Below are positions 1,001-29,367 of a DNA stretch of 59,504 bases, one piece after another (position 1 is the first letter of the stretch; each line of letters opens with the position of its first letter). The notes beneath the pieces are model-generated. The model saw nothing but the letters and a program-made list of their open reading frames with translations. It did not search any database and was not told the origin of the DNA. Position numbers and translations under genes: made by a program. Location of the stretch: the NCBI GenBank assembly GCA_014191755.1, contig BJHE01000012.1:1-59504 (forward strand). The letters run 5' to 3'. Origin of the DNA: Cyanobium sp. Lineage in GTDB: Bacteria; Cyanobacteriota; Cyanobacteriia; PCC-6307; Cyanobiaceae.

Positions 1001-1273
1001 CCACCACCATGGACACCCCGGCATTCCCTGCCACTACTGAAGTTTCACTGCTTAGTGGTCCTTGTGACGGTAAAAAGATAAGCATATCCGGTCGTCCTTA
1101 CGAGTTTTGGGTGCCGAACGATGATCCGCAAATGTTACCATTAGATATTAGCCGAATATCCTATTCTAGAACGTCTCAGTGGGTAGCAATCTACATAAGG
1201 GTAGCAGACAAAAATCAATACAAATTCCTTGAGATGCGTCGAATAAGATCCTGCTTCTGATCACCCCCTAGCC
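989..1273. repeat. 14-bp direct repeat flanking a low-GC gene
   Basis: The sequence atcaccccctagcc occurs at 989-1002 and again at 1260-1273 and continues with partial similarity (ccacc against cgccg). The right copy is the end of the Mu-F-like gene read on the minus strand. The left copy therefore looks like a duplicated fragment of that gene end. The segment between them is exactly the low-GC gene 1009-1260. Confidence 0.7.
1009..1260 (+). CDS. Hypothetical low-GC moron-like gene
   Basis: 83 residues from the ATG at 1009; an in-frame start at 973 is possible but would run through the upstream gene. The N-terminus reads VSLLSGPCDGKKISISGRPYEFWVP. A 'GPCDGK' turn near the start is common in small phage proteins of unknown role. 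Base composition is clearly more AT-rich than the flanks, which suggests recent acquisition. It is convergent with the Mu-F-like gene and ends 1 nt before that gene's stop. Its position between direct repeats fits an independently inserted accessory gene. Confidence 0.6.
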   Translation: MDTPAFPATTEVSLLSGPCDGKKISISGRPYEFWVPNDDPQMLPLDISRISYSRTSQWVAIYIRVADKNQYKFLEMRRIRSCF

Positions 1274-2400
1274 GCCGCCCTCCTAGCCGCCAGCTCCCCT
1301 ATCGCCTCGCTGAACGTCCGCCCATCCATCGGGGCATCCAACGGCGCCGAGGGTGGGATACTGCGCTTGCGATCGGGGAACAGATACCGCTCACTGGCCG
1401 TTGGTGTCGTCAGAGCCCGCTGTAGCAGCCCCCGCGCCTTCTCCTCACTGATCCCCTCGGCCTTGGCCAGTGCCCGCACGCCTGCCGCCTGCTCCTCCCG
1501 CCAGAACTCACCATCGAGCAGGGTGTCACGAATCACCGCATCCTCTTCCAGTACCTCATTGGCAGGCACCGGAACCGGTGTGCAGCGGCACTGCGGGTGG
1601 GCAGGGATCACCACCTGATCTGCCGGGAAGATCTGCCCATGGCGGCTGAGGCACCACCGACAGGCCCGCTCATCGGTGGCAGCGACCCACCGGATGAACG
1701 CGTAGCCTTCCTTCAGGTTGTGATCAATCGCCCCCTTCACATAGGCATTGGCCAGCTCACTGCGAGCGATCACCTCAGCCCGCTGCCTGAGCCCCATACG
1801 CGAGGTCTTGCCCGTGGGGTCGGTTGTGCCCTCCAGCGCCCCGAGGATCTGCCGCTCCAGCCGCCTGGAGCCCCAGCCACGGGCTACCCCCTCGCTGACG
1901 ATCTGGGCAATCTGATCACGGAACCGGGCCGTTTCGCCCTGCATGAAGGCGGTGGCCGCCTGCGTGGCAGCTCGGACCGCCAGTGGGTTGGCACCGGCAT
2001 AGGTGGCAGTGGCACCGGTCACGATGCCCTGAAGTGCTGCAGCCGCCTCACCACCAACGGATAGGGCCTCGACTAGATCGGTGGTGAACCGCCGCTGCCA
2101 AGCTGCGATCTCCTCAGGCGGCAGGAACTGCTGAGCATCCCTGAGGATGGCCTGGTATTTCGCTGCCGCCTCGCCAGAGCTGTAGGCACCGGGGGCCCTG
2201 ATCGGGTTCCCCTCGGGGTCCAGGGCCTCGGGGCCCACGGCGTTCAGATAGGCGGTGTAATGCCGCTTCAGGTCGCCTAGGACGCGATCCAGGGCGGTGC
2301 GGAGCATGGCAGTGGTGTTCTCCACCATCCGCCCCTCCAGCTCGTCAAGGATGGCGGCGTAGCTGTCAACGCTGCGGATTATGCGGTCGCCCTGGGCCAT
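1261..2400 (-). CDS. Mu-F-like minor head protein (first packaging module)
   Basis: 379 residues. The C-terminal half contains the arrangement of Phage_Mu_F proteins: ARSELANAYVKGAI, then RWVAATDERACRWC with a Cys pair, then AHPQCRC near residue 280. In known phages this protein sits beside the portal and is a minor virion or morphogenesis component. The first 120 residues are helical and Ala-rich. It is the last gene of the leftward packaging operon, 26 nt after a 56-residue gene. In related phages scaffold and capsid genes normally follow, but here the strand switches to unrelated plus-strand genes. The module therefore appears truncated. Confidence 0.8.
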   Translation of the reverse strand: MAQGDRIIRSVDSYAAILDELEGRMVENTTAMLRTALDRVLGDLKRHYTAYLNAVGPEALDPEGNPIRAPGAYSSGEAAAKYQAILRDAQQFLPPEEIAAWQRRFTTDLVEALSVGGEAAAALQGIVTGATATYAGANPLAVRAATQAATAFMQGETARFRDQIAQIVSEGVARGWGSRRLERQILGALEGTTDPTGKTSRMGLRQRAEVIARSELANAYVKGAIDHNLKEGYAFIRWVAATDERACRWCLSRHGQIFPADQVVIPAHPQCRCTPVPVPANEVLEEDAVIRDTLLDGEFWREEQAAGVRALAKAEGISEEKARGLLQRALTTPTASERYLFPDRKRSIPPSAPLDAPMDGRTFSEAIGELAARRAAARG

Positions 2401-2426
2401 GGATTAGGCGGTTGCAACTGGGGCTT

Positions 2427-2597
2427 TCACTCGCCCACCACCTCGTAACCCTCCTCCCCTTCCTCGTCGCCATCTTTCAGAGCAGCCATCAGCACATCCT
2501 GCTTGGCCGTCTCCAGAATGCCGACCACCTCGAACACGCTGCACAGCGATTTGGAGATGGCAGAGCTGATCGCCTCGTAAAGCTCATCCGCAGTCAT
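2427..2597 (-). CDS. Small acidic protein between portal and Mu-F gene
   Basis: A 56-residue gene between the portal stop (2630) and the Mu-F-like gene. It begins MTADELYEAISSAISK, has Val and Leu spaced like an amphipathic helix in the middle, and ends in a very acidic tail (DGDEEGEEGYEVVGE). Size and charge resemble small adaptor or scaffold-like proteins of head operons, but no family is recognised. The ATG, gap-free placement and coding-like composition support it as real. Confidence 0.6.
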   Translation of the reverse strand: MTADELYEAISSAISKSLCSVFEVVGILETAKQDVLMAALKDGDEEGEEGYEVVGE

Positions 2598-2629
2598 GGG
2601 GCCTCTGCTGTTACGGCTTAGCTTTCCGC

Positions 2630-4141
2630 TCAGGCTGCCGCCGTCGGCTCCACTTCATCCAGCGGTGTGCTCAGATCCGGCGGCGTGGTCGTGTCGTTCC
2701 GCCCTGGTGTTGGCGCCCCCAGCGTCGGCCGCTCCTTGCGAATCCGCTCCAACTCGTCTTCCACGCTGCTCGTTGCCCGGTTGAACCCACCGCGCTGCAG
2801 CTCCTCCACGGCGCTCTCCTGGCTGATCAGCGGCTCGCCACCGGTTAGGTCCATCAGCGCCTTGGCACCCTGCGCATCGAGTGGCGGGACAAAGGCGTTC
2901 TCGTCCATCGTGAGGCCAGCCCCGACAGGTAGCTCCTCCCCGGTATAGAGGCACCAGATCGCCAGGATGGACTGCATCGCGGACTTCTTACGCTCGCCCA
3001 GGGACTTAATGCTCACCTGAGTCCTGCCGCCTTCCAGTTGCGCCTGGGTGGCCGTCTTGGTGATCTTGCTATCACCGCTGAGGAAGCCCAGCAGCTGCTG
3101 ATTGATCAGTTCCTCCACTTCCTTGATCTGCTCTCGCTGCTCGGCCAGAGAGGTTGCCGAGGGCTCACGGAAGAAGAAGTCCCCGTCCTTGTCAAGATCG
3201 ACAGCCGTGTTAGGGCCAATCACCAGCGGTGTGACTGCTTGGCCAGGCATTGGCGGCGGGGCACCCTTTCGCACTGGCACCGGCATGGCGCACTTGTGGG
3301 TTTTCTCCTTCAGGTCAGAGCGCATCTGGAAGTGCTCGATGCTGTGCTCTACTACCTGCCGCAATGGCTGCCCACCTTTGCCGAACCCGGCCTTCTCGGC
3401 TGGATACCAAACTACCGGGCAGATCGGCAGCGGCTTCTGCTTGGCGTCCAGGTATTGGCCATTGCTCACCTCGTCAATAGTTAGCCTGCCGTCTGCCTGC
3501 TTGGTCAGCTTGTACAGCGTCCACTTCCCCGCCTCGATCACCCGGTAGCGCTCCTCATAGATCACCCCAAAGTCACCATCGGGGGAATCAACCTCAGCCC
3601 ATTCCAGGAATGTGCAGCGGGTCACAACCTCCACCGAATTGATGATGGCGGTCCGCCAATTCAGGCACGTTGAACGGGTGCGGCTGACCAGGTACGGGCG
3701 CCGCTTCAGTGCAGCCTCGCTGGCCCCATCGGTAGGCTTGCCATCGGGCATCTCCACCAGGACCGGCACCCCGCCATCCCGGAGGCATAGGGCATCCACG
3801 GTGAGCCACCATGCCTCAAGGCTATTGCCCTCTAGGTCAATGTTGTCCTTCGCCTTCTCAAAGGTCGGCGGCGGGTTTACTAGGTCGCTGCGCGATAGCA
3901 CCCCTGCGAAGGCTTCGATACCAGCTTTGAAGAAGTCTGCGAACACCGCACGACCCAGCCTGCCCTCATAGGCATTAGGTGGTTCCGCTGGTTCGGCCGG
4001 CAAATACTTACGCTTGGTCGCCTCACCCGTCAGGCAATACCAGGCGTCATACGCTCGCTCCAGATCCTGGGCGTGCTCCCTCAGGATCGGATGCCGGAAC
4101 GATGGCAACTTCGGGTCGGTTCCAGGATGTTCAGATTGCAC
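2630..4141 (-). CDS. Portal protein, DUF4055-type (first packaging module)
   Basis: 503 residues. The N-terminus (FRHPILREHAQDLERAYD) and the segment AFADFF...AGVLSRSDLVNPP match what I know of DUF4055 phage portal-like proteins. Portals form the dodecameric ring through which DNA enters the capsid. Residues about 300-420 (DGDFFFREPSATSLAEQREQ and the following helices) fit the long stem and wing helices. It lies 39 nt downstream of the sigma-like gene and is unrelated in sequence to the second portal at 25888-27444. It appears full length and intact. Confidence 0.8.
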   Translation of the reverse strand: MQSEHPGTDPKLPSFRHPILREHAQDLERAYDAWYCLTGEATKRKYLPAEPAEPPNAYEGRLGRAVFADFFKAGIEAFAGVLSRSDLVNPPPTFEKAKDNIDLEGNSLEAWWLTVDALCLRDGGVPVLVEMPDGKPTDGASEAALKRRPYLVSRTRSTCLNWRTAIINSVEVVTRCTFLEWAEVDSPDGDFGVIYEERYRVIEAGKWTLYKLTKQADGRLTIDEVSNGQYLDAKQKPLPICPVVWYPAEKAGFGKGGQPLRQVVEHSIEHFQMRSDLKEKTHKCAMPVPVRKGAPPPMPGQAVTPLVIGPNTAVDLDKDGDFFFREPSATSLAEQREQIKEVEELINQQLLGFLSGDSKITKTATQAQLEGGRTQVSIKSLGERKKSAMQSILAIWCLYTGEELPVGAGLTMDENAFVPPLDAQGAKALMDLTGGEPLISQESAVEELQRGGFNRATSSVEDELERIRKERPTLGAPTPGRNDTTTPPDLSTPLDEVEPTAAA

Positions 4142-4180
4142 CGCCGCCTGTACTCACAGCCTCGTATCTGATCTTTCCGC

Positions 4181-5095
4181 TTAGAGCTTCACCGCCTTGG
4201 GATGGGGTTTGCGGCGTTGGAACAGGGACGGCTGCACCACCTCGACCGGTGCGGGTCTGGGCTGGCGGGGGCGCCGCTCACGGCGTGCAGGGGCAACGGT
4301 GGCAACGTCCAGCCCTAGCAGCCCTTGCCGGAACTGCTCCAGGGTGCGGCCACGTAGCTGGGTCTTCAGGCGGTTATGGAACTGAATCATCGGCCCCGAG
4401 GGGTAGGCCCGCTTGAATGGATCAGCTGCCCACCGCTCTAGGAGGCCACGATCAGCGGGGCGCAGGTTGGCGAACGCTGCATCAGTGAGGGCATAGAGCG
4501 CGGGGGCAAGGGCTGCCTCCGTGGCCTGGGGCTGGTGTTGGCTGAATAGGGTCAGCTCGTCTTCCAGCTCGATGGTGCCGACCATGCCGCCGAGCATCTC
4601 GGTGATCTCGTCTTCGGTGAAGCAGGGCAGGGCCTCGACAACCTGGGCGAGCGTCTGCCCCTCGGCCAGCATCCGGCGAACACGGGGATAATGCTCGCGC
4701 CACTTACTGGGCATCTTCACGTCGTAGCCGTGGTCCCTAATGTGGTGTTTGATGGCCCCCTCGATGTACATGCACACCAAGGTTGAGAGCGCATAGGGCC
4801 GGTCTGTGGCGGGGTTGATCTTGTGCGGGTCATAGCGGCGGCACCCGTTGACCAGCCCCTCCAGGGCGGGGCCGATGAAGTCTTCAAAGGGCCGGCTGCA
4901 GCGGCGGGACCACTTAGCGGCGGCTGCCTCGGCTAACCCCTGGTTCTCGACAATCAGCCGCTCGGATAGCTCCGTGCGTGGTGGTGCTCCAGGTTTGGCC
5001 GGTTGCTCTAGCGGCGCACCCTTGCGCTCCCGGAGCCTGCGCTTGGGGGGCTCCGGGAGGGTATCGGTGGGTTGTGGGGTGAGGGTGGTGATCAT
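4181..5095 (-). CDS. Sigma-70-like protein in the packaging operon
   Basis: 304 residues. Residues 46-120 follow the order of sigma region 2: LIVENQGLAEAAAAKW, then RPFEDFIGPALEGLVNG, RYDP, and YALSTLVCMYIEGAIKHHIR. Then come KMPSKW and a region-3-like helix pair (QTLAQVVEAL...DEITEMLG). This resembles cyanobacterial SigF/SigB-type factors (...FEDL..GLI.A..RFDP...Y..P.IRG.I.HYLRD). A clear region 4 is missing; LRPADRGLLERWA near residue 215 may be its remnant. The C-terminus is basic and Pro/Arg-rich. It overlaps the upstream gene by 4 nt. It could direct late transcription, or be a repurposed DNA-binding protein. Confidence 0.6.
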   Translation of the reverse strand: MITTLTPQPTDTLPEPPKRRLRERKGAPLEQPAKPGAPPRTELSERLIVENQGLAEAAAAKWSRRCSRPFEDFIGPALEGLVNGCRRYDPHKINPATDRPYALSTLVCMYIEGAIKHHIRDHGYDVKMPSKWREHYPRVRRMLAEGQTLAQVVEALPCFTEDEITEMLGGMVGTIELEDELTLFSQHQPQATEAALAPALYALTDAAFANLRPADRGLLERWAADPFKRAYPSGPMIQFHNRLKTQLRGRTLEQFRQGLLGLDVATVAPARRERRPRQPRPAPVEVVQPSLFQRRKPHPKAVKL

Positions 5096-5385
5096 AACCG
5101 GGCAGCCTTTCTGCTGGCATGGTCTTTGCGGAGAGCGTCTAGCGCATCGGAGTCCAGAAAAATGCGGCCGCCTGCATCGGCACCAATATCAACGTAGGCC
5201 TGCTGCCAACCAAGCAATGTACTTCCGGCGACTCCAGCAGGGTTACCTCCTTGATAGTCAATCCGGGTTTCAGGTATCTCACCAGGCCAGGTCTGCTCCA
5301 GCAGCCAATCGACAACCTCAGGCGGCGGAAGGTGCGGGTCGCGGGGTGTGGTGCTCATTGGCTGGGTGGGTTGGTGGGTGGTCAT
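5092..5385 (-). CDS. Hypothetical protein downstream of large terminase
   Basis: 97 residues, ATG overlapping the terminase stop by 4 nt; an internal ATG ten codons in is also possible. The sequence has a Pro-rich start, then VVDWLLEQTWPGEIPETRIDYQGG, AYVDIGADAGGRIFLDSDAL and a basic end. No family is recognised. The tight overlap on both sides places it in the packaging operon and implies co-translation with the terminase and the sigma-like protein. Confidence 0.6.
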   Translation of the reverse strand: MTTHQPTQPMSTTPRDPHLPPPEVVDWLLEQTWPGEIPETRIDYQGGNPAGVAGSTLLGWQQAYVDIGADAGGRIFLDSDALDALRKDHASRKAARL

Positions 5386-6962
5386 CGGAAGCCGGGGATA
5401 GCGGACCGCCGCCGGGGTGGTGGGGTCTCCGGCTGCTGCAGCAGTGCGGTAGAGCCGTGGCCGTAGGTGGCAGTGGTGATCCGCATGGGGCCGGTGCCCT
5501 GCATCGCGTTGATCGCCTGGCTCAAGGCGTCCACCTGGTCGTCAAATGTGTCGCCAGGGAACTTCAACAGCTGCGACGTAAGTAGCCCGGTCAGTGGGTG
5601 CCACCGGGGCAGGAACACCCGGCCCTTGTTGAACTCAGGCGTGGCAGCATTGGCCCTGGCCACCTTCCCGCCCACGGGATCAACTGCGTGAACAATGAAG
5701 CCAGCGGCGGCACGCTTTAGGGAGCTGATCACTGCGCTGCCATTTGCCTTGTCCTCAACAAACAACTCGCCAAAGCTCCAGGTCGGCCACATTGCCCCAA
5801 CGGTTTCCTCTGTTTTAGCAAAGTCCATCCGCTGATTCAGCAGGTCAACCAGCCACGCCCCAGAGCCGTCCTGTCCCCATAGCTGCATGGCCACCATGTC
5901 ACTGCCGGGGCTGTCCTTAAAGGTGCAATCAAGGCTTGCCAGCTTGCGTACAAAGCGATCGGGCAGTATCGCGTCATCTTCCAGCCCAGGGCGCTCGCGG
6001 GTGCCGTAGAAGCGGAACATCCCCGCATTGAACACCATGCCACCTGATGGCTGTGGGCGCTGCTGGTAAAGGGCTGCCCAGTCCCGATCTGGGGTGTTCA
6101 GCTGCTTTTTTCGTGCCCACTCGGCATCGTACCGATCGGGGTCCAGCGCTTCACCGGGTTGGCGATGGTCGGGCTCCAGGGTGAGTGTTGCCGGCACTGC
6201 AACCTGCACCGGCTCGGCAATGATCGACATCTGAATTACGTGCCACGGTTCGGCCGCGTCTGCGTTGCCGTCGCGCTCCAGTTCCTCAACCTGACTGATC
6301 AGCCAGCCGATCAGATCGGCATCGGCCCATCGAGTATGGGTGATCAGCTTGAGACAGCCGGGTTCTTCACGGGTATTGAGCACCGTGGACCACCAGTCGT
6401 AAAGCTGGCGGCGATATGCAGCAGATTCGGCCTCCTGCCGGTTTTTGATCGGATCGTCAACATTGATGAAATGGGCGGGCAGGCCGGTGCCCTTGCCGAC
6501 GCCAGCACCCCAGAATCCACCAAGCTGGCCAGCAACCTTCCAGCGGCCTTTGCCCGCGCTGCTGGGATCAAGGATGCCACCAGATGCAGTGAAGTAATCA
6601 CGGGCCGCCTGTCCAAACTCTTCGGCAAGTGGCTGGCTGTGGGCCCCCTGGCCCCAGGTGCGATCGGGGTAGCGACGGATGAACCAGGACGGCAGGCAGC
6701 GACTGAAGATGGTGGATTTGTAGTGGCGTGGCGGCAGCATGAGCAGCAGCCTGGTGAGTTCACCAATACCGACGCGCTGGCCGATTTCAATGAGGCGGTT
6801 GTTGTGCCTGGTAAATGGGAACTTGGGGTAAACCGCTGCGATGTGATCACCGAATGAGCAGGTGTAGGGCTCCTGTGGTGTGTTTGTACTGGCATTGGCA
6901 TCGCGCTCCAGCTCCAGCACGGCGAGGCGCGAGGAGGGGTCAGGGGCGCGGATGGGGGTCAT
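5382..6962 (-). CDS. terL: Terminase large subunit 1 (packaging ATPase-nuclease)
   Basis: 526 residues from the ATG at 6962, which overlaps the preceding stop by 4 nt. The ATPase part shows a Walker A-like LPPRHYKST (about 76-84) and a Walker B-like HFINVDDP (164-171). The C-terminal nuclease shows Asp345 in LASLDCTF, Glu403 in LFVEDKANG and the Asp cluster in DTFDDQVDALSQA (471-483). This is the full two-domain layout of Terminase_6-type enzymes, which pump DNA through the portal and cut it. It is unrelated to the second large subunit at 23740-25653 and looks functional. Confidence 0.88.
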   Translation of the reverse strand: MTPIRAPDPSSRLAVLELERDANASTNTPQEPYTCSFGDHIAAVYPKFPFTRHNNRLIEIGQRVGIGELTRLLLMLPPRHYKSTIFSRCLPSWFIRRYPDRTWGQGAHSQPLAEEFGQAARDYFTASGGILDPSSAGKGRWKVAGQLGGFWGAGVGKGTGLPAHFINVDDPIKNRQEAESAAYRRQLYDWWSTVLNTREEPGCLKLITHTRWADADLIGWLISQVEELERDGNADAAEPWHVIQMSIIAEPVQVAVPATLTLEPDHRQPGEALDPDRYDAEWARKKQLNTPDRDWAALYQQRPQPSGGMVFNAGMFRFYGTRERPGLEDDAILPDRFVRKLASLDCTFKDSPGSDMVAMQLWGQDGSGAWLVDLLNQRMDFAKTEETVGAMWPTWSFGELFVEDKANGSAVISSLKRAAAGFIVHAVDPVGGKVARANAATPEFNKGRVFLPRWHPLTGLLTSQLLKFPGDTFDDQVDALSQAINAMQGTGPMRITTATYGHGSTALLQQPETPPPRRRSAIPGFR

Positions 6963-7237
6963 CCCACCGGCCCCACGCGATACACGGCCCAGTAGGCACC
7001 GGGGCCTGGGTGGTCCGTAACCTCCAGCAATTGATGCTCGCGCAATGCCGCAATCCGCCTGCTCACAGTGGACTGCGAGCACTGCCACCGAGTCATCATC
7101 TCGGCGGTGGTGATCTCCGGGACAATGCCAGCCGCAATGCGCAGACCAAGCCATTCGGCAAGCTCCAGGCAATCAAGCAGGGTGCCTTCACTCACATAGG
7201 GCCGTCGTGCCAGCAGGGTGCGGACAAGATCGGTCAC
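6959..7237 (-). CDS. Winged-helix DNA-binding protein
   Basis: 92 residues with a recognisable winged-helix core: EITTAEMMTRWQCSQSTVSRR (helix-turn-helix) followed by IAALREHQLLEV and a wing ending GAYWAVYRVGPVG. It overlaps both neighbours by 4 nt, between small and large terminase genes. It is similar over its length to the protein at 55286-55558 (both have LLAxR near the start, a C-x-R-R helix and end RxGPV). Likely a regulator, or an accessory small-terminase-like DNA-binding subunit. Confidence 0.65.
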   Translation of the reverse strand: MTDLVRTLLARRPYVSEGTLLDCLELAEWLGLRIAAGIVPEITTAEMMTRWQCSQSTVSRRIAALREHQLLEVTDHPGPGAYWAVYRVGPVG

Positions 7238-7752
7238 GGTTCCCCCTCGTCTACCGCAGGCGTCCCGAGGCCACGGGCCTGGATCTGCAACAGCACGCGG
7301 CGCTCATCGTCTGGGGTAAGCCCAGCAGAGGCAAGGGCGTCCATCACGGTGGCAACGGTCTTGCGCTCTACGCGGCGATCGGCGGCAGCATCCGAGAAGT
7401 GATCACGCAGTCTGGGATGATGCGTCAGCAGCCAGGTTGCGGCCCAAGGGTTAGGCGGAGTGGAGGTGGTTCCTCTTGCCGCAAGACGCAAACCAGATAG
7501 CAGGTTTTCGCACTCTTTGGCATCCGCCAGAAAGATAGCTTGCCGAAATTGGCACTCAAGACTGTCTGCTTCTTTGCTTTCCGCGCTTTTGAGCCATGTG
7601 AAGGCTGTTCTGCGGCCAATGCCTAGCTGATCAGCGATCAACGCCATCGGGAGACCTGCTGCCGCCAAGGTGCCAGCTCTTTCCACCAGTTCAGGTGTGA
7701 GCTTGCTTGGGCGGCCAGCAGGCACGGGTAGCGCGGCGTTGCGGTCGCCCAT
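7234..7752 (-). CDS. Terminase small subunit 1
   Basis: 172 residues. The N-terminal part (GRPSKLTPELVERAGTLAAA then LPMALIADQLGIGRRTAFTW) is a helix-turn-helix of the sort found in terminase small subunits that recognise pac or cos DNA. A helical middle (about 60-110) and a C-terminal tail follow. Its place directly upstream of the large subunit, separated only by the winged-helix gene, supports the call. It begins the packaging set, 37 nt after the dCTP deaminase-like gene. Confidence 0.65.
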   Translation of the reverse strand: MGDRNAALPVPAGRPSKLTPELVERAGTLAAAGLPMALIADQLGIGRRTAFTWLKSAESKEADSLECQFRQAIFLADAKECENLLSGLRLAARGTTSTPPNPWAATWLLTHHPRLRDHFSDAAADRRVERKTVATVMDALASAGLTPDDERRVLLQIQARGLGTPAVDEGEP

Positions 7753-7789
7753 AGTCTAAGCCATAATTGCCGTTTGGGAACGGCAACGG

Positions 7790-8305
7790 CTACCCACGCG
7801 ATGAAGTCACAGCGGTATCTCCGTTGTACCTTCCGACCTCGGCATAGGACGCAAGGGGGGTGGAGTCCATGCGTAGGAACTTCATTTGCCCGATCTTGAG
7901 GCCTGGGTAGATACCAACCCAGTGGAGCTGGCGGACGTTTTTCAGCTCCAGGGTGAGGCGTGAGCCGTTCCAGCCTGGGTCGCACCATCCGGCTAGCAGG
8001 TGCTGCAGACCCTCGCGGGCGCGGGAGGACTTGAGCACGAACTGTGCGGCGATGCACTTAGGCAGGTTGAAGATTGGCTCCCCTTCTGCAAGCAGGAACT
8101 GTCCCGGCACCATGCGATAGGGGTCGTCTGCGGTGTGGTGGGCCATGCAGTAGGGCACAAGGCCGGGGCCCTCGGCGGACTCGATCAGGATGTTCGAGCC
8201 CAGACGAAGGTCCAGGCTTGCGGGGTTGAGAAGGGCAGGATCGAAGGGTGTGACCATGCCAGTTTCACACAGGGCACGGATCTGAAAGTCAGCGAGAACG
8301 GTCAT
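7790..8305 (-). CDS. dcd: dCTP deaminase (Dcd family)
   Basis: 171 residues. It carries the Dcd/dUTPase signatures LNPASLDLRLG (26-36), VLKSSRAREGL (90-100) and DPGWNGSRLTLELKN (109-123), in which Glu120 is at the position of the catalytic Glu of bacterial Dcd. The protein ends GRYNGD, as Dcd proteins commonly end GRYQG. Dcd converts dCTP to dUTP and ammonia, feeding dTTP synthesis. Some phages use it to shift host nucleotide pools. Overlaps the upstream gene by 4 nt. Confidence 0.85.
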   Translation of the reverse strand: MTVLADFQIRALCETGMVTPFDPALLNPASLDLRLGSNILIESAEGPGLVPYCMAHHTADDPYRMVPGQFLLAEGEPIFNLPKCIAAQFVLKSSRAREGLQHLLAGWCDPGWNGSRLTLELKNVRQLHWVGIYPGLKIGQMKFLRMDSTPLASYAEVGRYNGDTAVTSSRG

Positions 8306-20490: not shown

Positions 20491-20528
20491 CCGAGGTTAG
20501 CAAGGCCAAACCCCTTGCCCTCCAAGGC

Positions 20529-20690: not shown

Positions 20691-20709
20691 GGACCCACAG
20701 GAGGCACCC

Positions 20710-21614: not shown

Positions 21615-22334
21615 ATGAGCGAGAGCATTCCTGCGATGGCGAAGCGGCTGGAGATGTGGCCGCTGGAGCGGCTGCGGCCCTATGCCAACAACGCGCGGGT
21701 CCACAGCGAGCGGCAAGTGGAAAAGATCGCGCGGAGCATCCGCGAGTTCGGCTTCACGGCGCCGATCCTGGTGGACAGCGAGGACGGGATCCTGGCGGGC
21801 CATGGGCGGCTGCAGGCTGCGCAGCTGCTGGGGCTGGCCGAGGCGCCGGTGGTGGTGCTCGACCACCTGGATGCAGAGCAGCGGCGAGCGTACCTGCTGG
21901 CGGACAACCGGCTGGCGGAGGATGCCAGCTGGGACCATGAGCTGCTGGCGAAGGAGCTGGCCGCGATCGACCTGGACCCAAGGGTGCTGGGGTTCGACGA
22001 GGACGACCTGGCGCGACTGCATGATGGGCTGGAGCTCGAGGCGCTGGAGGTGATGGCGACACCGCGCGCGGGAACGGAGCGAGTGGAGCCTGAGCACGGG
22101 ATGCCGGGTGCGGCCGCGCCGGAGCCAGAGGACGACGGGACGACCGCCGAGGCTGAGAGCGGCGAGGTGGATGAGCGGCACGTGTTCTCGGTCAACCTGC
22201 GATGGGACGATCGGGAGGTGGTGCTGGCCGCGGTGCGGATGGCGAAGGAGCGATGGGGGCTGGAGGGAATGCCCGAGGCCCTGGCGGCGCTTTGCAGGGA
22301 GTGGATGGATGAGCAAGGCGCTGGAGCTGATTGA
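21615..22334 (+). CDS. ParB/Srx-fold nuclease-like protein
   Basis: 239 residues from the ATG at 21615. The N-terminal domain carries WPLERLRPYANNARVHSERQ, IARSIREFGFTAPILVDSED and ILAGHGRLQAAQLLGL, the ParB/sulfiredoxin fold with its GHGRL phosphate loop. In phages this domain often precedes the terminase, sometimes fused to methyltransferases; here it has an acidic Glu/Pro linker and a C-terminal VFSVNLRWDDREVVLAAVRM domain. It may bind or nick DNA before packaging. Overlaps the next gene by 26 nt. Confidence 0.8.
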   Translation: MSESIPAMAKRLEMWPLERLRPYANNARVHSERQVEKIARSIREFGFTAPILVDSEDGILAGHGRLQAAQLLGLAEAPVVVLDHLDAEQRRAYLLADNRLAEDASWDHELLAKELAAIDLDPRVLGFDEDDLARLHDGLELEALEVMATPRAGTERVEPEHGMPGAAAPEPEDDGTTAEAESGEVDERHVFSVNLRWDDREVVLAAVRMAKERWGLEGMPEALAALCREWMDEQGAGAD

Positions 22335-22530
22335 GCTGGGGCACGGGCTGCTGCGGGATCTGCCGGACTGCCGGCTGTGGGGCGTGGATGACGGCGTGCC
22401 ACAGCGCGAGATCCGGAAGCGGCTGGGGATGGAAGCCGAGGAAGTGATCAGGCTGCTGAACCGGTCTGAGATGCCTGCGCAGGCGGGAGGCGGTAGCTTC
22501 AGTGCATCCTGGAAGCCGGGCAAGGGATGA
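22309..22530 (+). CDS. Small hypothetical protein
   Basis: 73 residues from the ATG at 22309, inside the end of the ParB-like gene. It reads KALELIELGHGLLRDLPDCR, then QREIRKRLGMEAEEVIRLLN, which looks like two helices and could be a small DNA-binding or adaptor protein. It ends in a 4-nt overlap with the PRTase-like gene. No family recognised. Confidence 0.55.
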   Translation: MSKALELIELGHGLLRDLPDCRLWGVDDGVPQREIRKRLGMEAEEVIRLLNRSEMPAQAGGGSFSASWKPGKG

Positions 22531-22895
22531 TCCTGCAGCTCACCTGGGCCGGCTTCGACGCAGCGGTTGATGTGATTGCGGCGCAATGCCCACGCGACCG
22601 CCTGGGCGTGCATGGCGTGGATCGCGGCGGGCAGCTGCTGGCGTGGGCGCTGAGCGAGCGGCTGGGGATCGAGCTGATGCGCCGGCCTGGCAGCGGGATG
22701 CTGCAGCTCCATGGCGTGTCGGTGTCACAGCCGCGGCTGCTGTGGGGTGACGCGATGGTGTTGGCGTGGATCGACGCGACGCCAGGACAGAACCTGATGG
22801 CGGTGTGCAAGGCGACGCCGGGCACCACGGTGCTGATGCCCTGGCAGGATGCTCCTGCATCTCGGCGGCCGTTTGTGCCGGGCTTCGATGATTGA
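22527..22895 (+). CDS. Degenerate phosphoribosyltransferase-like protein
   Basis: 122 residues. The opening LTWAGFDAAVDVIAAQC, then LGVHGVDRGGQLLAWALSER and AWIDATPGQNLMAVCK, follows the strand-helix order of PRTase-fold proteins, where GVxGVPRGG.LA.AL is a common first motif. The PRPP-binding signature (VDDxxxTG) is not present: the corresponding segment reads LQLHGVSVSQ. If the fold assignment is right, the protein is probably inactive as a transferase. It lies in the pre-terminase cluster with short overlaps. Confidence 0.4.
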   Translation: MILQLTWAGFDAAVDVIAAQCPRDRLGVHGVDRGGQLLAWALSERLGIELMRRPGSGMLQLHGVSVSQPRLLWGDAMVLAWIDATPGQNLMAVCKATPGTTVLMPWQDAPASRRPFVPGFDD

Positions 22896-23166
22896 GGTTG
22901 CGAGCATCCGCTATGGCTGCCAGTGGGGCCCGGATGGGCACGTGCGCGGCTGGCCGATGCGGATCGAGTTCGGCGCTGTCGGCCCTGAGGTGCCGGTGGA
23001 TGAAATGCTGGAAGGCCGCGGCCATGCAGTGCTGCTGATCGACCAGCTGGTGGCGCTGGTGCGTGGGATGACCGGGTTGGACACACCACTCGAGCTGGTG
23101 CAGCCCGTGCCGCCTGGGCTGGGCGTCAAGCTGGTTGAGGCCGGGTTCTACGTCGCGTTGTGCTGA
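22888..23166 (+). CDS. Hypothetical protein upstream of the small terminase
   Basis: 92 residues from the ATG at 22888, overlapping the previous stop by 8 nt (ATGATTGA). It reads IEVASIRYGCQWGPDGHVRG and then AVLLIDQLVALVRGMTGLDT, probably a small alpha-beta protein. It overlaps the GTG of the Nu1-like gene by 7 nt. No family recognised. Confidence 0.55.
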   Translation: MIEVASIRYGCQWGPDGHVRGWPMRIEFGAVGPEVPVDEMLEGRGHAVLLIDQLVALVRGMTGLDTPLELVQPVPPGLGVKLVEAGFYVALC

Positions 23167-23759
23167 TCAGCGTTGCCGAGTTTGCCGCCAGGATGGGCGT
23201 GAGCCCGCAGGCAGTGCGGAAGGCGATCAAGGCCGGGCGACTGTCGCGCAGCGCGCAACTGGAGAAGACGAAGCCGAAGGGCCAGACGGGCCGGCCTGCG
23301 TGGGTGATCGACCCTGAGATTGCGGAGCTGGAGTGGAGCCGCAACACGGAGCCGCAGTTTCAACGCACCGCGGCGCAGATCAACGCCGGGAAGGCGCGCG
23401 CGCGCGGCGAGGACGTGCCTGACCTTGAGCCTGTGGCGCCGCCTGGCAACCGGGGCGGTGCGGGAACCTACGCCAGCGCCAAGGCCGCAGCCGAAGGCTA
23501 CAAGGCGATGCTGCTCAAGCTCGACTACGAGGAGCGGAGCGGCAAGCTGCTGGACAAGGCGGCGACAGAGCGTGGGTTCGCGGCAGCCGGGATGCAGGTG
23601 CGTGATGCGGTGATGCGCACGAGCCAGCAGATGGTGGGCGAGATCGCGACGGCGGTCGGCGGCCTGAGCCAGGAGCAGCGTGCAGCGGTGCTGCAGGTGA
23701 TCGACCGGCATCATGTAAGGGCGTTGGAGGAGTTGGTGCGTGCCGCTGGCGTCCGTTGA
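23160..23759 (+). CDS. Terminase small subunit 2, Nu1-like
   Basis: 199 residues from a GTG at 23160. The N-terminal winged helix (ISVAEFAARMGVSPQAVRKA then IKAGRLSRSAQ) and a C-terminal helical domain (TYASAKAAAEGYKAMLLKLD...GKLLDKAATERGFAAAG) are the layout of lambda gpNu1-type packaging proteins. These bind cos DNA and recruit the GpA-type large subunit encoded immediately downstream with a 20-nt overlap. It is unrelated in sequence to the small subunit at 7234-7752. Confidence 0.8.
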   Translation: MLISVAEFAARMGVSPQAVRKAIKAGRLSRSAQLEKTKPKGQTGRPAWVIDPEIAELEWSRNTEPQFQRTAAQINAGKARARGEDVPDLEPVAPPGNRGGAGTYASAKAAAEGYKAMLLKLDYEERSGKLLDKAATERGFAAAGMQVRDAVMRTSQQMVGEIATAVGGLSQEQRAAVLQVIDRHHVRALEELVRAAGVR

Positions 23760-25653
23760 TGATGCGCTGCTGGCGTTCTGGCGCAGCATGCGCCCGGACC
23801 CGCTGCTGACGGTGAGCGAGTGGGCGGATCAGCGGCGGGTGTTGAGCCAGAAGGCGAGCAGCGAACACGGGGAGTGGAAGACATCCAGGACGCCGTATCT
23901 CCGCAAGCCGATGAACGACTTGTCGGCGACGAGCACGGTGCAGGAGGTGGTGCTGGTGTTCGGCGCGCAGATGGGGAAGAGCGAGATGCTCAACAACTGG
24001 ATGGGCTACGTGATGGACATCCAGCCGGGGCCGGCGCTGTTCGTGCAGCCGACGATCGACATGGCGAAGCGCTACAGCAAGATGCGAATCGCGCCGATGA
24101 TCGAGGCGACGCCAAGCCTGGGCGAGAAGGTGAAGGCGCCGCGCGAGCGCGACTCGGGCAACACGCAGCTGATGAAGGAGTTCACCGGCGGCTTCCTGAT
24201 CCTGGGCGGGGCCAATGCAGCGAGCGGCCTGGCGTCGATGCCGATCCGGTTCCTGGGTGGCGATGAGATCGACCGCTGGCCGGCGGACGTGGACGAGGAA
24301 GGGAGCCCGCTGGCGATCGTGAGCGCGCGGACGCGGACGTTCGGCGTGCGGAAGAAGCAGGCATGGACCAGCACGCCAACGATCGCGGGCCGCAGCCCGA
24401 TCTGGTCGAAGTGGGAGACGAGCAATCAGCAGCAGCTGAAGCTGCCCTGTCCGCGCTGCGGGCATCGGCAGATGATCGAGTGGGACCGGATCCGGTACGA
24501 CCCGAAGGATCCGGGCCTGCCGAACACGCTGCGGCAGCCGCCGGTGCTGATCTGCGAGGCGTGCGGCGAGGGCATCAGCGAGGACGCGAAGGCTTGGTGG
24601 TACGACCCGGAGGTGTTCGACGAGGAATGGTGGGATCCGCTGTTCCCGGAGCGCGAGGTTCAGGGCTACCACTGCTCGGCGCTCTACTCACCCCTGGGCT
24701 GGTTCAGCTGGACTGAAGCAGCGGTCGGCTATGAGCAGGCAAAGGACAACCCGGCGGACTTGAAGCCGTGGTGGAACACGGTGCTGGCGGAGTGCTGGAA
24801 CGACGACGGCGAGGCCCCGGACTGGGAGGCGCTCTACAACCGGCGGGAGCTCTACGAGCTGGGCACGGTGCCCGACGGGGTGGTGTTCATCACCTGCGGC
24901 GTGGACGTGCAGATGGACCGCCTCGAGTTGGAGGTGGTGGGCTGGGGCCCTGGGATGGAGAGCTGGAGCCTGGACTACCAGGTGCTCGCCGGCGACACGG
25001 CGCAGCCGGCGGTGTGGCGCGAGCTGTCGAAGTTCATCCGCAGTGAGTTCGGCCGCGGCGATGGGCAGCGGCTGCCGATCCGGATGACGGCGATCGACTC
25101 TGGCTTTAGGAGCCAGGAGGTCTACCGGTGGGTGCGGGGCCAGGCCGGCAACCGGGTGATCGCGGTGAAAGGCCAGGAGAGCCAGACGGCGATCATCGGC
25201 ACGCCGGGCCGCGTGGAGGTGCTGCGCAACGGCAAGGCCCTGCGTGGTGGCGTCAAGGTCTGGCCGGTGGGCGTGAGCACCGTGAAGAGCGAGCTCTACG
25301 GCTGGCTGCGACGTCCGATGCCTGATGACGGCGACGGGCTGCCGCATGGCTGGTGCCACTTCCCGCAACACGGCGAGGAATGGTTCCGGCAGCTGTGCGC
25401 CGAGCGGCTGACGAACACGATCGACCGGCGAGGGTACAACCGCTTCGAGTGGATCAAGACGCGGCCACGCAACGAGGCCCTGGACTGCAGGGTCTACGCG
25501 CGCGCTGCTGCAGCGCTGACTGGCGCTGATCGCTGGGGTGATGAGCGATGGGAGAAGGAGCGCAACGGTGGGATCGAGCGCGACGAGCGACGGCCGGCGC
25601 CGGCGCAGGAGGAAGACGCGCCGGCACGGTCGGGGTCTTCGTTCTGGGACTGA
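23740..25653 (+). CDS. Terminase large subunit 2, GpA family
   Basis: 637 residues from a GTG. The lambda gpA-type features are present: PYLRKPMNDLSATSTVQEVV, Walker A-like VFGAQMGKSE (73-82), Walker B-like FLGGDEIDRW (171-180) and a zinc-finger pair CPRCGH and CEACGEG. The nuclease domain begins near TCGVDVQMDRLELEVVGWGP. This family cuts at cos and packages DNA into lambda-like capsids. Length is normal and the reading frame intact. A second, unrelated large terminase lies at 5382-6962. Confidence 0.92.
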   Translation: MPLASVDDALLAFWRSMRPDPLLTVSEWADQRRVLSQKASSEHGEWKTSRTPYLRKPMNDLSATSTVQEVVLVFGAQMGKSEMLNNWMGYVMDIQPGPALFVQPTIDMAKRYSKMRIAPMIEATPSLGEKVKAPRERDSGNTQLMKEFTGGFLILGGANAASGLASMPIRFLGGDEIDRWPADVDEEGSPLAIVSARTRTFGVRKKQAWTSTPTIAGRSPIWSKWETSNQQQLKLPCPRCGHRQMIEWDRIRYDPKDPGLPNTLRQPPVLICEACGEGISEDAKAWWYDPEVFDEEWWDPLFPEREVQGYHCSALYSPLGWFSWTEAAVGYEQAKDNPADLKPWWNTVLAECWNDDGEAPDWEALYNRRELYELGTVPDGVVFITCGVDVQMDRLELEVVGWGPGMESWSLDYQVLAGDTAQPAVWRELSKFIRSEFGRGDGQRLPIRMTAIDSGFRSQEVYRWVRGQAGNRVIAVKGQESQTAIIGTPGRVEVLRNGKALRGGVKVWPVGVSTVKSELYGWLRRPMPDDGDGLPHGWCHFPQHGEEWFRQLCAERLTNTIDRRGYNRFEWIKTRPRNEALDCRVYARAAAALTGADRWGDERWEKERNGGIERDERRPAPAQEEDAPARSGSSFWD

Positions 25654-25654
25654 G

Positions 25655-25660
25655 TAGCAT
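25655..25660 (+). promoter_or_regulatory. TAGCAT -10-like element before gpW
   Basis: The context is ctgagTAGCATgacc, 21 nt before the gpW ATG and overlapping the terminase stop. Upstream context is the same as at 37691-37701 (ctgagTAGAAT). It is one of five related elements found in gaps ahead of structural genes. Confidence 0.4.
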
Positions 25661-25681
25661 GACCGGAAGGAGGTGGCCCGG

Positions 25682-25891
25682 ATGAGCACATTCACGCAGG
25701 CGCATCTGGCGGCCATCGAGGAAGCGATCGCCGGCGGCTACCTGGAGGTGCGCTACGACGACAAGGTGGTGAAGTACCAGTCGATGAGCGACCTGATGAA
25801 GGCACGCAACCTGATCGCGAGCAGCCTGGCCGCGGCCACCGCTCCGGCGGTGCGGATCGACTATCCGGCCGTGGTGCGGGACTACGAATGA
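25682..25891 (+). CDS. Head-to-tail joining protein gpW
   Basis: 69 residues, ATG at 25682 with GGAAGGAGG upstream. It reads STFTQAHLAAIEEAIAGGYL, EVRYDDKVVKYQSMSDLMKA and ARNLIASSLA, matching the lambda gpW fold of two helices and a beta hairpin and its usual length of 68 residues. gpW closes the portal after packaging. It sits between the large terminase and the portal as in lambda. Confidence 0.85.
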   Translation: MSTFTQAHLAAIEEAIAGGYLEVRYDDKVVKYQSMSDLMKARNLIASSLAAATAPAVRIDYPAVVRDYE

Positions 25892-27444
25892 ACCCTTTCG
25901 AGCAGCTGCTGGCCGCCATTGCCCCCAGGGCGGCGCTGAAGCGTCAGGCGGCCCGCCTCCAGCTGGAGCAGATGCGTCGCTACGACGGCGCCGCGCGAGG
26001 GCGTCGCACCGACAACTGGGTGACGCAGGGCAGCTCTGCCGATGCTGCGACTGCGCGCGGGTTCGGGATCATGCGCGACCGCGCGCGCGACCTGGTGCGC
26101 AACAACCCCTACGCGAAAAAGGCGGTTGAGTCGTGGGTGACCAACCTGATCGGCGCTGGGTGGAGCTTCAAGGCGAAGCAAAGCCGGCGCAACGGCCGCC
26201 AGGGCGAGCGGGTGACGGAGATCATGCGGGCGTGGATGGCGGACCCGCGCCAGTGCGACTACCACGGCATCCAGAACTTCGACGGCCTGATGGCGCAGGC
26301 GGTGCGCTGCTGGAAGGAATCGGGCGAGGTGCTGATCAGGATGCGCACGCCAAGCCGCCAGGCTGTGCAGCGCCTGGGCCTGACGATCCCACTGCAGCTG
26401 CAGGTGATGGAGGGCGACTGGATTGACGAGACGCACGACACGCCGGCGATGAGCGACACCGCCGGCTGGACGAAGCGCGGCATTGTCTACGACGCCGAGG
26501 GCCGCCGCGATCGGTTCTGGATTTACAACTACCACCCGGGTGAGAGCGCGGTGCAGGCAACGGCGATCACCAGCAACACGGTGCCGGCCGACGAGATCAT
26601 CCACCTGTTCACGCCAGAGCGTCCTGGGATGACGCGGGGCGTGAGCTGCCTAGCCCCGGTGATGGTGCGGCTGAGAGATCTGGGCGATCTGCTCGATGCG
26701 CGGCTGATGAAGGAGAAGGTCGCGGCCTGCCTGTCGGCGGCCGTGGTCGACCTGGATGGCACGAGCGATCAGAAGAGCACGATCGGCGAGCGACTGGAGC
26801 CCGGCGCTGTGGTGCGCCTGGGCCCTGGCCAGGACATCAGGGCGATCAACCCGCCGGCTGCAGGCGAGATCGACCGCGTGATCAAGACCTACCTGCTGGA
26901 GATCGCAGCGGGCATCGGCATCACCTACGAGGAGCTCACCGGCGACTACAGCGGCGGCAGCTTCACGCAGGGCCGGATGGGGTGGATCGGGTTCCAGCGC
27001 CGGCTGCAGAGCGACACCTGGCAGGTGCTGGCGCCGCTGGCGTTCAACCGTGTGGCGGAGTGGGCGTTCAACGCGATGAACGCAGTCGGCATCGCGACCG
27101 ATGGCATCGCCGCTGACTGGACGCCACCGCGGCGCGAACTCTTCGATCCGCAGAGCGAGACGAACAGCACGATCTCGCGCGTGCGTGCGGGCCTGCTGCC
27201 GCCGCAAGAAGCGATCCGCGCTGATGGCTACGAACCCGATGAAGTGGTGCGGCTGATCCAGGAGTGGAACCAGCTGCTGGATGCAGCCGGCATCGTGCTC
27301 GATACCGACCCGCGGAAGGTGTCGGCAGCGGGCCTGACGCAGGTGCGGCCGCTGGGGTCAACGCTGCCGCCGACCGGTGAACCGCCGGTTGAAGCTGAGC
27401 AACCGCCAGCGCCTGCAGCGCCAAGATCCCCGTCAGCAGGCTGA
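25888..27444 (+). CDS. Portal protein, lambda gpB family (second module)
   Basis: 518 residues. Family signatures include GFGIMRDRARDLVRNNPYAK, KAVESWVTNLIGAGWSFKAK, HLFTPERPGMTRGVSCLAPV and GDYSGGSFTQGRMGWIGFQR, the standard order in lambda gpB-type portals. It forms the DNA entry ring and docks gpW and the GpA terminase. It overlaps gpW by 4 nt. The C-terminal 30 residues are Pro/Ala-rich. It is unrelated to the other portal at 2630-4141. Confidence 0.92.
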   Translation: MNPFEQLLAAIAPRAALKRQAARLQLEQMRRYDGAARGRRTDNWVTQGSSADAATARGFGIMRDRARDLVRNNPYAKKAVESWVTNLIGAGWSFKAKQSRRNGRQGERVTEIMRAWMADPRQCDYHGIQNFDGLMAQAVRCWKESGEVLIRMRTPSRQAVQRLGLTIPLQLQVMEGDWIDETHDTPAMSDTAGWTKRGIVYDAEGRRDRFWIYNYHPGESAVQATAITSNTVPADEIIHLFTPERPGMTRGVSCLAPVMVRLRDLGDLLDARLMKEKVAACLSAAVVDLDGTSDQKSTIGERLEPGAVVRLGPGQDIRAINPPAAGEIDRVIKTYLLEIAAGIGITYEELTGDYSGGSFTQGRMGWIGFQRRLQSDTWQVLAPLAFNRVAEWAFNAMNAVGIATDGIAADWTPPRRELFDPQSETNSTISRVRAGLLPPQEAIRADGYEPDEVVRLIQEWNQLLDAAGIVLDTDPRKVSAAGLTQVRPLGSTLPPTGEPPVEAEQPPAPAAPRSPSAG

Positions 27445-27447
27445 CCC

Positions 27448-27453
27448 TAGAAT
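27448..27453 (+). promoter_or_regulatory. TAGAAT -10-like element before the capsid gene
   Basis: Context ctgacccTAGAATCgcaacg, in the 33-nt gap after the portal stop and 24 nt before the capsid ATG. A good Shine-Dalgarno (GGAGGAG, 27463-27469) follows. No obvious -35 box is seen. Confidence 0.45.
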
Positions 27454-27477
27454 CGCAACGATGGAGGAGTGCACATC

Positions 27478-29367
27478 ATGAGCGACGGTCTTCTACAGAC
27501 CCGCGCGATGTTCGCGCCGGAGACGATCAACGTCGAAGAGCGAACTGTTGAGCTGGTCTGGTCGACCGGCGCCCAGGTGCGACGCGCCAGCTGGTCGCGT
27601 GGTGACTACATCGAGGAGCTGAGCATGGCGCCTGGCGCCGTGCGGATGGAGCGCCTGAACAAAGGCGCACCGCTGCTCGATGCGCACGACTCCTTCTCGC
27701 TGCGCAGCCAGATCGGTGTGGTGCAGCGAGCATGGCTGGACGGCAACCAAGGCCGCGCCCTGGTGAAGTTCAGCCGGCGTGATGACGTGGAGCCCATCTT
27801 CCAGGATGTGCAAGACGGCATCTACCGCAACGTGTCTGTGGGCTACAAGGTCCACAAGACGGAGCGCGACGAGACCGGCGCTGTGCCGGTTGAGCGCGCT
27901 GTGGACTGGGAGCCCTATGAGCTCTCGCTTGTCCCGATCCCGGCCGACGCCGGGGCCCAGGTGCGCTCCGAAGAGCCGCCTGCAACCCAACCTGAAAAGG
28001 AACGATCCATGACCCTTCCCGTTGATGGGGTGCAGGCTCCCGAGCCCACCACCCAGGAGACTGTGACCCGCGCCGCTGCTCCGGTGGCACCCGCTGCGCC
28101 GGTGGTGAACGCCGATGAGGTGCGCGCTGAAGAGCGCCGCCGCACCGCCGGGATCCTCGACGCCGCCCGCAAGCTGAAAGTCGGCGACGAGCTGGCCCAC
28201 CAGCTGATCGCTGATGGCGTGAGCCTCGACGAGGCCCGCCTGCAGCTGATCGACGCCAAGGCCCAGGACGAACAGCGCACCCCCGCGCAGTCCCGCGTTG
28301 AGGTCACCAAGGACCACGGCCAAAAGCGGTTCGACGCCAAGCTGGAGCACCTGAAGTTCCGCTCCAACCTGGGCGACATGACCGACGCTGCTCGCGAGTA
28401 TCGCGGCAGCACGCTGCTCGACATGGCCCGCGAGTCGCTGGATCTGGCCGGCATCAGCCACCGCGGGATGGACAAGAGCGAGATCGCCGTTCGCGCGATG
28501 CACAGCACCAGCGACTTCCCGCTGCTGATGGCCTCCATCCAGCGTGTGACCCTGAAGGCGGCTTACGCCGAAGAGCAGCAGACCTGGCGCCCCCTGGCGG
28601 AGCAGCGCAACCTGCCTGACTTCCGCGAGATGAAGGAGATCGAGGTGGGCGGCCAGATGCTGCCTGAGGAGATCAAGGAAGGCGGCGAGTACAAGACCGG
28701 CACCATCCAGGAGCAACAGGGCAGCTGGAGCCTTACCGAGTACGGCAAGAAGCTGGTGATCGGCCGCCGCCTGATCATCAACGACAACCTGGGCTACATC
28801 ACCCGCGCTGTGCAGGTGCTGGCCCGTGGTGTCGCCACCTTCGAGGCCAACCAGATGTGGGGTCTCATCACTGGCAACGCCAAGTGCATGAGCGACGGCC
28901 TGGCCCTGTTCCACGCCAGCCACAACAACACCGGCACCGGTGTGATCGGTGAGACCGCCATTTCGGCCGCGCGTCAGGCGATGCGCAACCAGAAGGACTT
29001 CACCGGCAAGAACCCCCTGTACGTGGTGCCGCAGTACATCCTGCTGCCGACCACCCTGGAGACCGCGTTTGACAAGTTCAACGCCACCATCACTCCCAAC
29101 CAGACCAGCAGCGTCAACATCTTCTCGGGCTACCTGCAGAAGATCGTGGAGCCCCGCCTGGATGCTTCGAGCACCGCGCAGTTCTACATCACCGGCAACT
29201 ATCCCGGCGTGACGAAGCTGATCTACGGCTACCTCGAAGGCGAGGCCGGCCCGACGATCGAATCTGAGATCAAGCGTGATCCTGACGGCATCGTGACCTA
29301 TCTGCGTCACGACTTCGGCTGCGCCATCGGCCAGCACCAGGGCTTCTACCGCTCCACCGGCGCCTGA
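27478..29367 (+). CDS. Prohead protease-major capsid fusion protein
   Basis: 629 residues from the ATG at 27478, chosen because GGAGGAG lies 8 nt upstream. Residues 1-165 form a prohead-protease-like domain (PGAVRMERLNKGAPLLDAHD, VSVGYKVHK, WEPYELSLVPIPADAGAQVR). A Pro/Ala-rich linker and a delta-like helical segment (180-290) follow. The rest is the capsid domain (YGKKLVIGRRLIINDNLGYI, GNAKCMSDGLALFHASHNN, LLPTTLETAFDKFN). Fused protease-capsid proteins are an established phage family. It is the only capsid gene in the window, although two packaging systems are present. Confidence 0.88.
   Translation: MSDGLLQTRAMFAPETINVEERTVELVWSTGAQVRRASWSRGDYIEELSMAPGAVRMERLNKGAPLLDAHDSFSLRSQIGVVQRAWLDGNQGRALVKFSRRDDVEPIFQDVQDGIYRNVSVGYKVHKTERDETGAVPVERAVDWEPYELSLVPIPADAGAQVRSEEPPATQPEKERSMTLPVDGVQAPEPTTQETVTRAAAPVAPAAPVVNADEVRAEERRRTAGILDAARKLKVGDELAHQLIADGVSLDEARLQLIDAKAQDEQRTPAQSRVEVTKDHGQKRFDAKLEHLKFRSNLGDMTDAAREYRGSTLLDMARESLDLAGISHRGMDKSEIAVRAMHSTSDFPLLMASIQRVTLKAAYAEEQQTWRPLAEQRNLPDFREMKEIEVGGQMLPEEIKEGGEYKTGTIQEQQGSWSLTEYGKKLVIGRRLIINDNLGYITRAVQVLARGVATFEANQMWGLITGNAKCMSDGLALFHASHNNTGTGVIGETAISAARQAMRNQKDFTGKNPLYVVPQYILLPTTLETAFDKFNATITPNQTSSVNIFSGYLQKIVEPRLDASSTAQFYITGNYPGVTKLIYGYLEGEAGPTIESEIKRDPDGIVTYLRHDFGCAIGQHQGFYRSTGA

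Follow-up and report, generated by a model that had tools for sequence, protein, structure and literature searches.

Two phage packaging systems on one Cyanobium contig very probably reflect an assembly chimera of two different viruses

Introduction

The 59,504-nucleotide contig BJHE01000012.1 of Cyanobium sp. (assembly GCA_014191755.1), analyzed here in full and called the window (bases 1 to 59,504, the entire contig C12 of an assembly of 220 contigs and 3.53 Mb), encodes a left packaging set of the Terminase_6 kind (part A) and a right set of the GpA kind (part B), which raises the question of whether one phage, or a satellite, carries two packaging motors. An earlier sequence-only reading had placed both sets in one element and had offered four explanations: a phage with a second motor and portal, a satellite-like element that steals capsids, two joined prophages, or an assembly join near 15.2 kb. 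Pfam and PHROGs matches find every packaging gene that it listed in the place and of the kind that it gave, without internal stops, and profile matches agree that the two sets are intact and from different families. On the larger question we come to a different view: the contig is very probably an assembly chimera, and its two packaging systems likely come from two different viruses. Phage A would be represented by a fragment running from base 1 to somewhere in 8.9-12.3 kb, and phage B by a complete circular genome (8881-59504) joined to A through a stretch likely common to both.

Results

The contig ends in an exact copy of an internal sequence

The final 127 bases of the contig (59378-59504) repeat 8881-9007 without a mismatch. 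The alignment runs 20 bases further to the left (147 bp in total), with mismatches at 8873 and 8880; the exact match begins immediately to the right of 8880 and stops where the contig stops. A second case was found in the same assembly, where bases 1-127 of contig C57 are identical to bases 2653-2779 of contig C115 and the first mismatch falls at base 128. Seven true contig ends were compared, and two of them, the end of C12 and the start of C57, show a 127-base overlap; the start of C12 gave no match against the entire assembly, and both ends of C115 and of C122 were compared with a few sequences of this assembly only. No further contig carrying the repeat was found in the assembly.

Since the start of C57 shows the same 127-base overlap, it is likely that the assembler used a k of 127 and that contigs end at vertices of its de Bruijn graph. 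The largest k in SPAdes is 127, and this assembler produces overlaps between contig ends (PMC5481147); de Bruijn assemblers cannot pair upstream with downstream contigs across a conserved region (PMC11443906). In that case 8881-9007 is likely a vertex shared by 1-8880 and 9008-59377: the paths ending at 8880 and at 59377 would merge there, and the contig would end on meeting sequence that had already been used. We also considered and rejected the 147-bp repeat as a phage attachment site; it falls within an open frame, there is further homology on the same side (8394-8473 versus 58982-59061, 90% identity), and its exact part equals the overlap length at another contig end.

The two large terminases were not found together

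We compared the window with public records that are mostly metagenomic viral contigs and may be fragments, from a collection that may omit records close to the window's own genome (records, terminase loci and contigs of the own assembly carry our handles G, L and C). Relatives of the large terminases (TerL) gave 110 loci in viral contigs, extending at most 10 kb on either side: all 30 found for the A TerL and the best 80 of 155 for the B TerL. None of the 110 holds both. Nine A-type and 12 B-type records of 31-67 kb, picked by length from these loci, were then searched whole; the A TerL was present in 9/9 A-type and 0/12 B-type records, and the B TerL in 12/12 B-type and 0/9 A-type records. 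The sequence-only reading had itself named, as an outcome that would refute it, homologous genomes in which each arm occurs alone and never with the other; this is the pattern in 21/21 records, most of which may be fragments, one (G003) being circle-like by a 123-base terminal overlap. With no co-occurrence in 21 records, and an end repeat that reads as a k-mer overlap, the placement of both sets in one element is not confirmed.

Twelve more records were reached through genes of an early-gene cassette described below, and 11 of them lack the B TerL. In the remaining record, G022, a relative of it occurs at 39%; over its entire length this record contains relatives of the B small terminase (TerS), TerL, portal, capsid, and decoration protein, and no A TerS, TerL, portal, or Mu-F-like protein (MuF) at an E value of 1e-3. 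A literature search on paired large terminases with portal and capsid in prophages found none. The A TerL was also sought in cellular genomes: 0/17 candidates in GTDB genome contigs were confirmed, and within the host family it was matched in 58/400 genomes, the own genome included (next best 56% and 44%, the rest at most 50%), a count of TerL matches without flanks that has no bearing on linkage.

Part B is predicted to close into a circle

If the end repeat is a k-mer overlap, the base following 59504 would be 9008, closing a circle of 50,497 bp (8881-59377). Closure is based on the 127-base overlap and on gene order in B-type relatives, in which the expected order is exonuclease, RecT, a helix-turn-helix (HTH) gene, SSB, a few kilobases, HNH, and integrase, followed by lysozyme, hub, and tape measure. 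The early side was fetched for 9/12 B-type records (G011, G020, and G021 were left out), and the gene path across the closure, in which SSB shares a contig with integrase, hub and/or lysozyme and the genes are ordered as predicted, was seen in seven of these nine (G010, G012, G014, G015, G016, G017, and G019). The path has gaps: the integrase was undetected in G014 and the lysozyme in G012, and of these genes G017 and G019 have just the integrase and SSB. The remaining two records, G013 and G018, end short of the closure point. SSB and the relative of gene 58756-58989 are 3.1-8.1 kb apart in the four records with both genes (G010, G014, G016, and G019) and would be about 3.9 kb apart in the closed window. 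The predicted length of 50,497 bp is near those of G010 (50,182 bp) and G016 (50,653 bp), the completeness of both being unproved; no terminal overlap was found in G010 or G014.

Closure also bears on the reading of the contig as a real mosaic, a linear B-type genome that gained an A-type packaging module and has at 59378-59504 a genuine second copy of the gene end at 8881-9007. As the usual neighbors of the cassette at 9-12 kb are A-type packaging genes, a natural recombination point is conceivable there. A mosaic would nevertheless require the repeat to reach the contig end by chance at exactly the overlap length of the other contig end; the terminases are, moreover, mutually exclusive in 21/21 records, and it is the circular reading that brings gene order and size into line with B-type records. 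We consider a mosaic highly improbable.

Phage A likely has a capsid beyond the left end of the contig

The statement that only the right set has a capsid is correct within the window; as a property of the left set it most likely reflects truncation, given the capsids present in 6/7 A-type records. The A-type record G003, whose 123-base terminal overlap is exact, as in a complete circle, has the order TerS, TerL, portal, MuF, tail, scaffold, major head protein, and integrase; its scaffold matches phrog_206 (3.1e-14), and its major head protein matches phrog_212 (2.4e-62) and lies 17 kb past MuF. Capsid relatives were found 17-23 kb past MuF in six of seven A-type records (G001, G002, G003, G004, G023, and G024), those outside G003 being 44-74% identical to the G003 capsid; the record without one, G005, breaks off about 6 kb beyond MuF. 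In the window, 1.26 kb follows MuF, with convergent small genes of the same kind as in G001 and G002. Because A-type capsids lie 17-23 kb past MuF and the window covers only 1.26 kb of that distance, the capsid of phage A likely lies beyond the left end of the contig. The remaining part of phage A is probably either absent from this assembly or too divergent to be recognized.

These relatives weigh heavily against the suggestion of a satellite, in which the terminase, portal, and MuF set would redirect packaging into the capsid of B. A left set that lacks a capsid inside the window is what such an element would show, but this set has its relatives in siphophages that themselves encode a scaffold and a capsid (6/7) as well as tape measure relatives and, in some of them, an integrase (G003, G005, and G023). 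A genuine satellite was accordingly rejected, since its A-type relatives have capsids, and we regard capsid stealing as exceedingly improbable.

The join likely lies in an early-gene cassette of both phage types

A nucleotide map of the window against A-type and B-type loci in 500-bp bins, covering 1-20 kb and 54-59.5 kb, shows A-type loci only at 1-7.5 kb and a mixture at 7.5-12.5 kb, where the bins 9.5-10 and 10.5-11 kb match neither type. From 12.5 to 15.0 kb each bin matches 9-11 B-type loci and 0 A-type loci; at 15-16.5 kb B-type matches predominate beside one or two weak A-type ones (66-70%), B-type loci alone match 16.5-20 kb and 54-58.5 kb, and 58.5-59.0 kb is mixed. Between 20 and 54 kb, protein comparison finds the B genes in B-type loci only. 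Among the four options, an assembly join is the one supported, but not at the place proposed: 15.2 kb, where we looked for a join and rejected it, shows no sign of one and is the divergent start of the two arms of B, contiguous in the B-type loci L043, L064, L101, and L111.

The mixed region corresponds to an early-gene cassette of both phage types (8847-12350, reverse strand), the right limit of which is placed by deduction. Its genes on the reverse strand are 8847-9425, 9259-10536, 10533-11027, and 11188-11529, and the cassette spans 8.8-11.5 kb together with 58.9-59.4 kb (58905-59504, including gene 59057-59353). In G022, which is of the GpA type, relatives of 9259-10536, 8847-9425, and 59057-59353 stand in the order predicted by closure. 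A sharp border between A and B at 8880 was our first reading and was softened, as the 9-12 kb genes are usually beside A-type genes in relatives. Because these genes adjoin A-type genes, the shared stretch likely reaches some point before 12.35 kb, and the join is likely at 8.9-12.3 kb, inside the cassette. A and B would be identical from 8881 to before 12.35 kb; the assembler would have collapsed this stretch and left it by the wrong exit.

Several observations weigh against this account. The join is one that we infer from sequence alone, and its position is only bracketed, because the cassette and the contig end mostly have A-type neighbors: the contig end at 59.0-59.5 kb matches three A-type and no B-type loci, and A-type packaging genes lie beside relatives of 8847-9425 in 17/20 loci and beside relatives of the 59057 protein in 15/17. 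G022 alone showed a GpA-type neighbor of the cassette, and neither 8847-9425 nor the 59057 protein had a match in the nine B-type records whose early side was fetched; ownership of the cassette by B rests on closure and on G022. The right end of the shared stretch, which was not seen, is the weakest link of the account. A search for 127-base overlaps with window positions 8500-23000 found no second contig of the own assembly, so that the other branch of A is unseen. The phrog_212-like capsids of the own assembly (C57, C115, and C122) share 44-49% identity with the G003 capsid, and a G003-type tape measure gave no match in the own genome.

A real cointegrate would give the same short-read picture. 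Here circular B would have crossed once into phage or prophage A at the cassette, a plausible homology arm, and the product would read A-left, repeat, B, repeat, and A-right, so that B is flanked by the repeat on either side. Such an element would measure about 95 kb or more, perhaps about 100 kb, and carry two complete packaging systems, each cutting the same DNA and filling its own capsid from it. It calls for an extra event, however, and would presumably be too long for either head if each packs 45-50 kb; no record searched has both TerLs, and no other contig of the own assembly has the repeat, as A-right would. We judge a cointegrate of this kind very unlikely, if not to the same degree as a mosaic, and the two taken together still have only a slight chance of being right.

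Two real prophages side by side in the host chromosome deserve next to no credence. Integrases are encoded by both phage types, but the transition falls among early phage genes, the B integrase and a tRNA-Met stand at the other end of the contig, and no host-like gene was noticed between the parts, although no dedicated search was made.

Gene content of part A

Next to the left end of the contig, three small genes on the forward strand (1-630, 623-1000, and 973-1260) are convergent with MuF and have relatives in A-type records; relatives of 1-630 and 623-1000 are convergent after MuF in G001 and G002 (at most 86% identity), and all three are so placed in L164. The genes that follow are on the reverse strand: the Mu-F-like minor head protein (1261-2400; PF04233, Phage_Mu_F, 1.2e-12; phrog_16619, 7.2e-32), the DUF4055 portal (2630-4141; PF13264, 1.7e-12; phrog_145 portal, 1.4e-70), a sigma-factor-like protein (4181-5095; phrog_36098, 2.6e-14; phrog_351, 1.8e-14), TerL of the Terminase_6C type (5382-6962; PF17289, 1.3e-8; phrog_38 TerL, 4.8e-77), a small winged-helix protein (6959-7237) that is under Pfam cut-offs and is also found between TerS and TerL in, e.g., L008-L010 and L016-L018, a TerS with a weak match (7234-7752; phrog_4102, 7.1e-7), and a dCTP deaminase-like protein (7790-8305; PF22769, 3.5e-24). 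The sigma-factor-like gene lies between TerL and the portal in many A-type loci as well, an unusual site for a transcription gene. The portal and MuF are 229 bases apart in the window, versus 5.5 kb with several small open frames in G001 (L008 14942-20424).

A TerL has 30 relatives in viral contigs, and the nearest A-type relatives overall are metagenomic viral contigs (TerL at most 93% over almost its full length, MuF at most 98%); a megablast of 1-8880 against annotated phages gave no match. Other phage pieces in the own assembly include the phrog_212-like capsids on C57, C115, and C122, and C57 and C123 encode distant (38%) relatives of the A TerL.

Gene content of part B

The early left arm (12351-15240, reverse strand) comprises SSB, HTH, RecT, exonuclease, and a small gene, with nucleotide matches in B-type loci. 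On the forward strand, a helicase, a nucleotidyltransferase-like gene, and a primase-polymerase/VapE replication protein (15350-20490) are likewise present in B-type loci, and the packaging-head block from TerS to the decoration protein (23160-29746) consists of TerS (23160-23759; phrog_57, 1.1e-16), the GpA TerL with ATPase and nuclease (23740-25653; 6.8e-76 and 1.7e-88), the gpW-like head-tail adaptor Ad1 (25673-25891; phrog_2545, no Pfam match), a lambda-type portal (Phage_portal_2, 25888-27444; 6.6e-84), the protease-capsid fusion (27469-29367; phrog_4523, 6.3e-191), and the decoration protein. Tail terminator, baseplate, sheath, tape measure, hub, and lysis genes follow on the same strand (33907-55026), among them head closure (47196-47696), so named from PHROGs and earlier labeled tail tube from its position. 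ARAGORN reports a tRNA-SeC (31155-31243) within the long open frame 30111-31595, which is probably a chance fold, and direct repeats (41745-42122; 108 bases, 94%, spacing 204) lie within the open frame 41609-42472.

A tyrosine integrase (55919-57214, reverse strand; PF00589, 1.7e-21; PF13356, 2.3e-17) is accompanied by a tRNA-Met (58151-58227, forward strand; ARAGORN), a possible attachment site; it is 91% identical over 76 bases to the tRNA-Met of C16 (25883-25958), the anticodon part being exact, and a tRNA-Met also lies between integrase and HNH in the B-type record G012. The gene at 58230-58682 (reverse strand), which we take to be HNH-like from its Cys/His pattern, has a 96% identical 51-residue fragment in G012 and a 52% relative in G010. 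In the closed genome, a rightward late arm would run through helicase, VapE, packaging, capsid, sheathed tail, and lysis, and a leftward early arm through exonuclease, RecT, SSB, the cassette, HNH, and integrase.

The nearest relatives of the B TerL are metagenomic viral contigs (at most 98% among the matches kept), and a megablast of 15000-39000 against annotated phages gave no match. A further relative of the B TerL, 88% identical, is in a Synechococcaceae metagenome-assembled genome (MAG) contig, which suggests a freshwater picocyanobacterial host.

Discussion

The two parts resemble different known phages. Part A has the Terminase_6 TerL, DUF4055 portal, and MuF of the cyanosiphophage set; the best annotated-phage matches of its TerL (34-35%) and portal (36-39%) are in the same records, S-CBS2, S-CRES1-3, and PSS2, which we take to be siphoviruses, and all annotated-phage matches of part A are below 60% identity. 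We predict that phage A is a siphophage with a capsid and tail of its own, encoded beyond the left edge of the contig. Part B has the packaging, capsid, sheathed tail, lysis, and integrase genes of a temperate myophage with a lambda-type head, and its GpA ATPase and nuclease, Ad1, Phage_portal_2, and protease-capsid fusion are like the lambda-type GpA modules. Its best annotated-phage TerL matches are to phage WO of Wolbachia (46-47%), a likeness that rests on TerL; the nearest relatives of B are instead the metagenomic viral contigs and the Synechococcaceae MAG contig. Cos-type cutting is typical of the GpA family. Phage B would use GpA to fill its own capsid, and phage A would use the Terminase_6-type motor to fill its own.

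As an artifact, the contig is like the chimeras that arise from k-mer overlaps in assemblers of the SPAdes family, in that a contig end has a 127-base exact overlap with an internal position; it differs from them in that two phage types, rather than strains of one, are joined, and the assembler is unrecorded. Checking whether a contig ends in an exact, k-long copy of an internal stretch offers a rapid way to spot chimeras of this sort among phage contigs in assembled genomes. A virus with two motors, as this contig seems to present, is most likely an artifact and ought not to be listed as a novel type of phage or satellite. What the shared stretch does point to is an apparent exchange of an early-gene cassette between a siphophage and a myophage that infect related picocyanobacteria. 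If our account of the contig is true, there is no unusual packaging biology here, and the window would represent two ordinary viruses.

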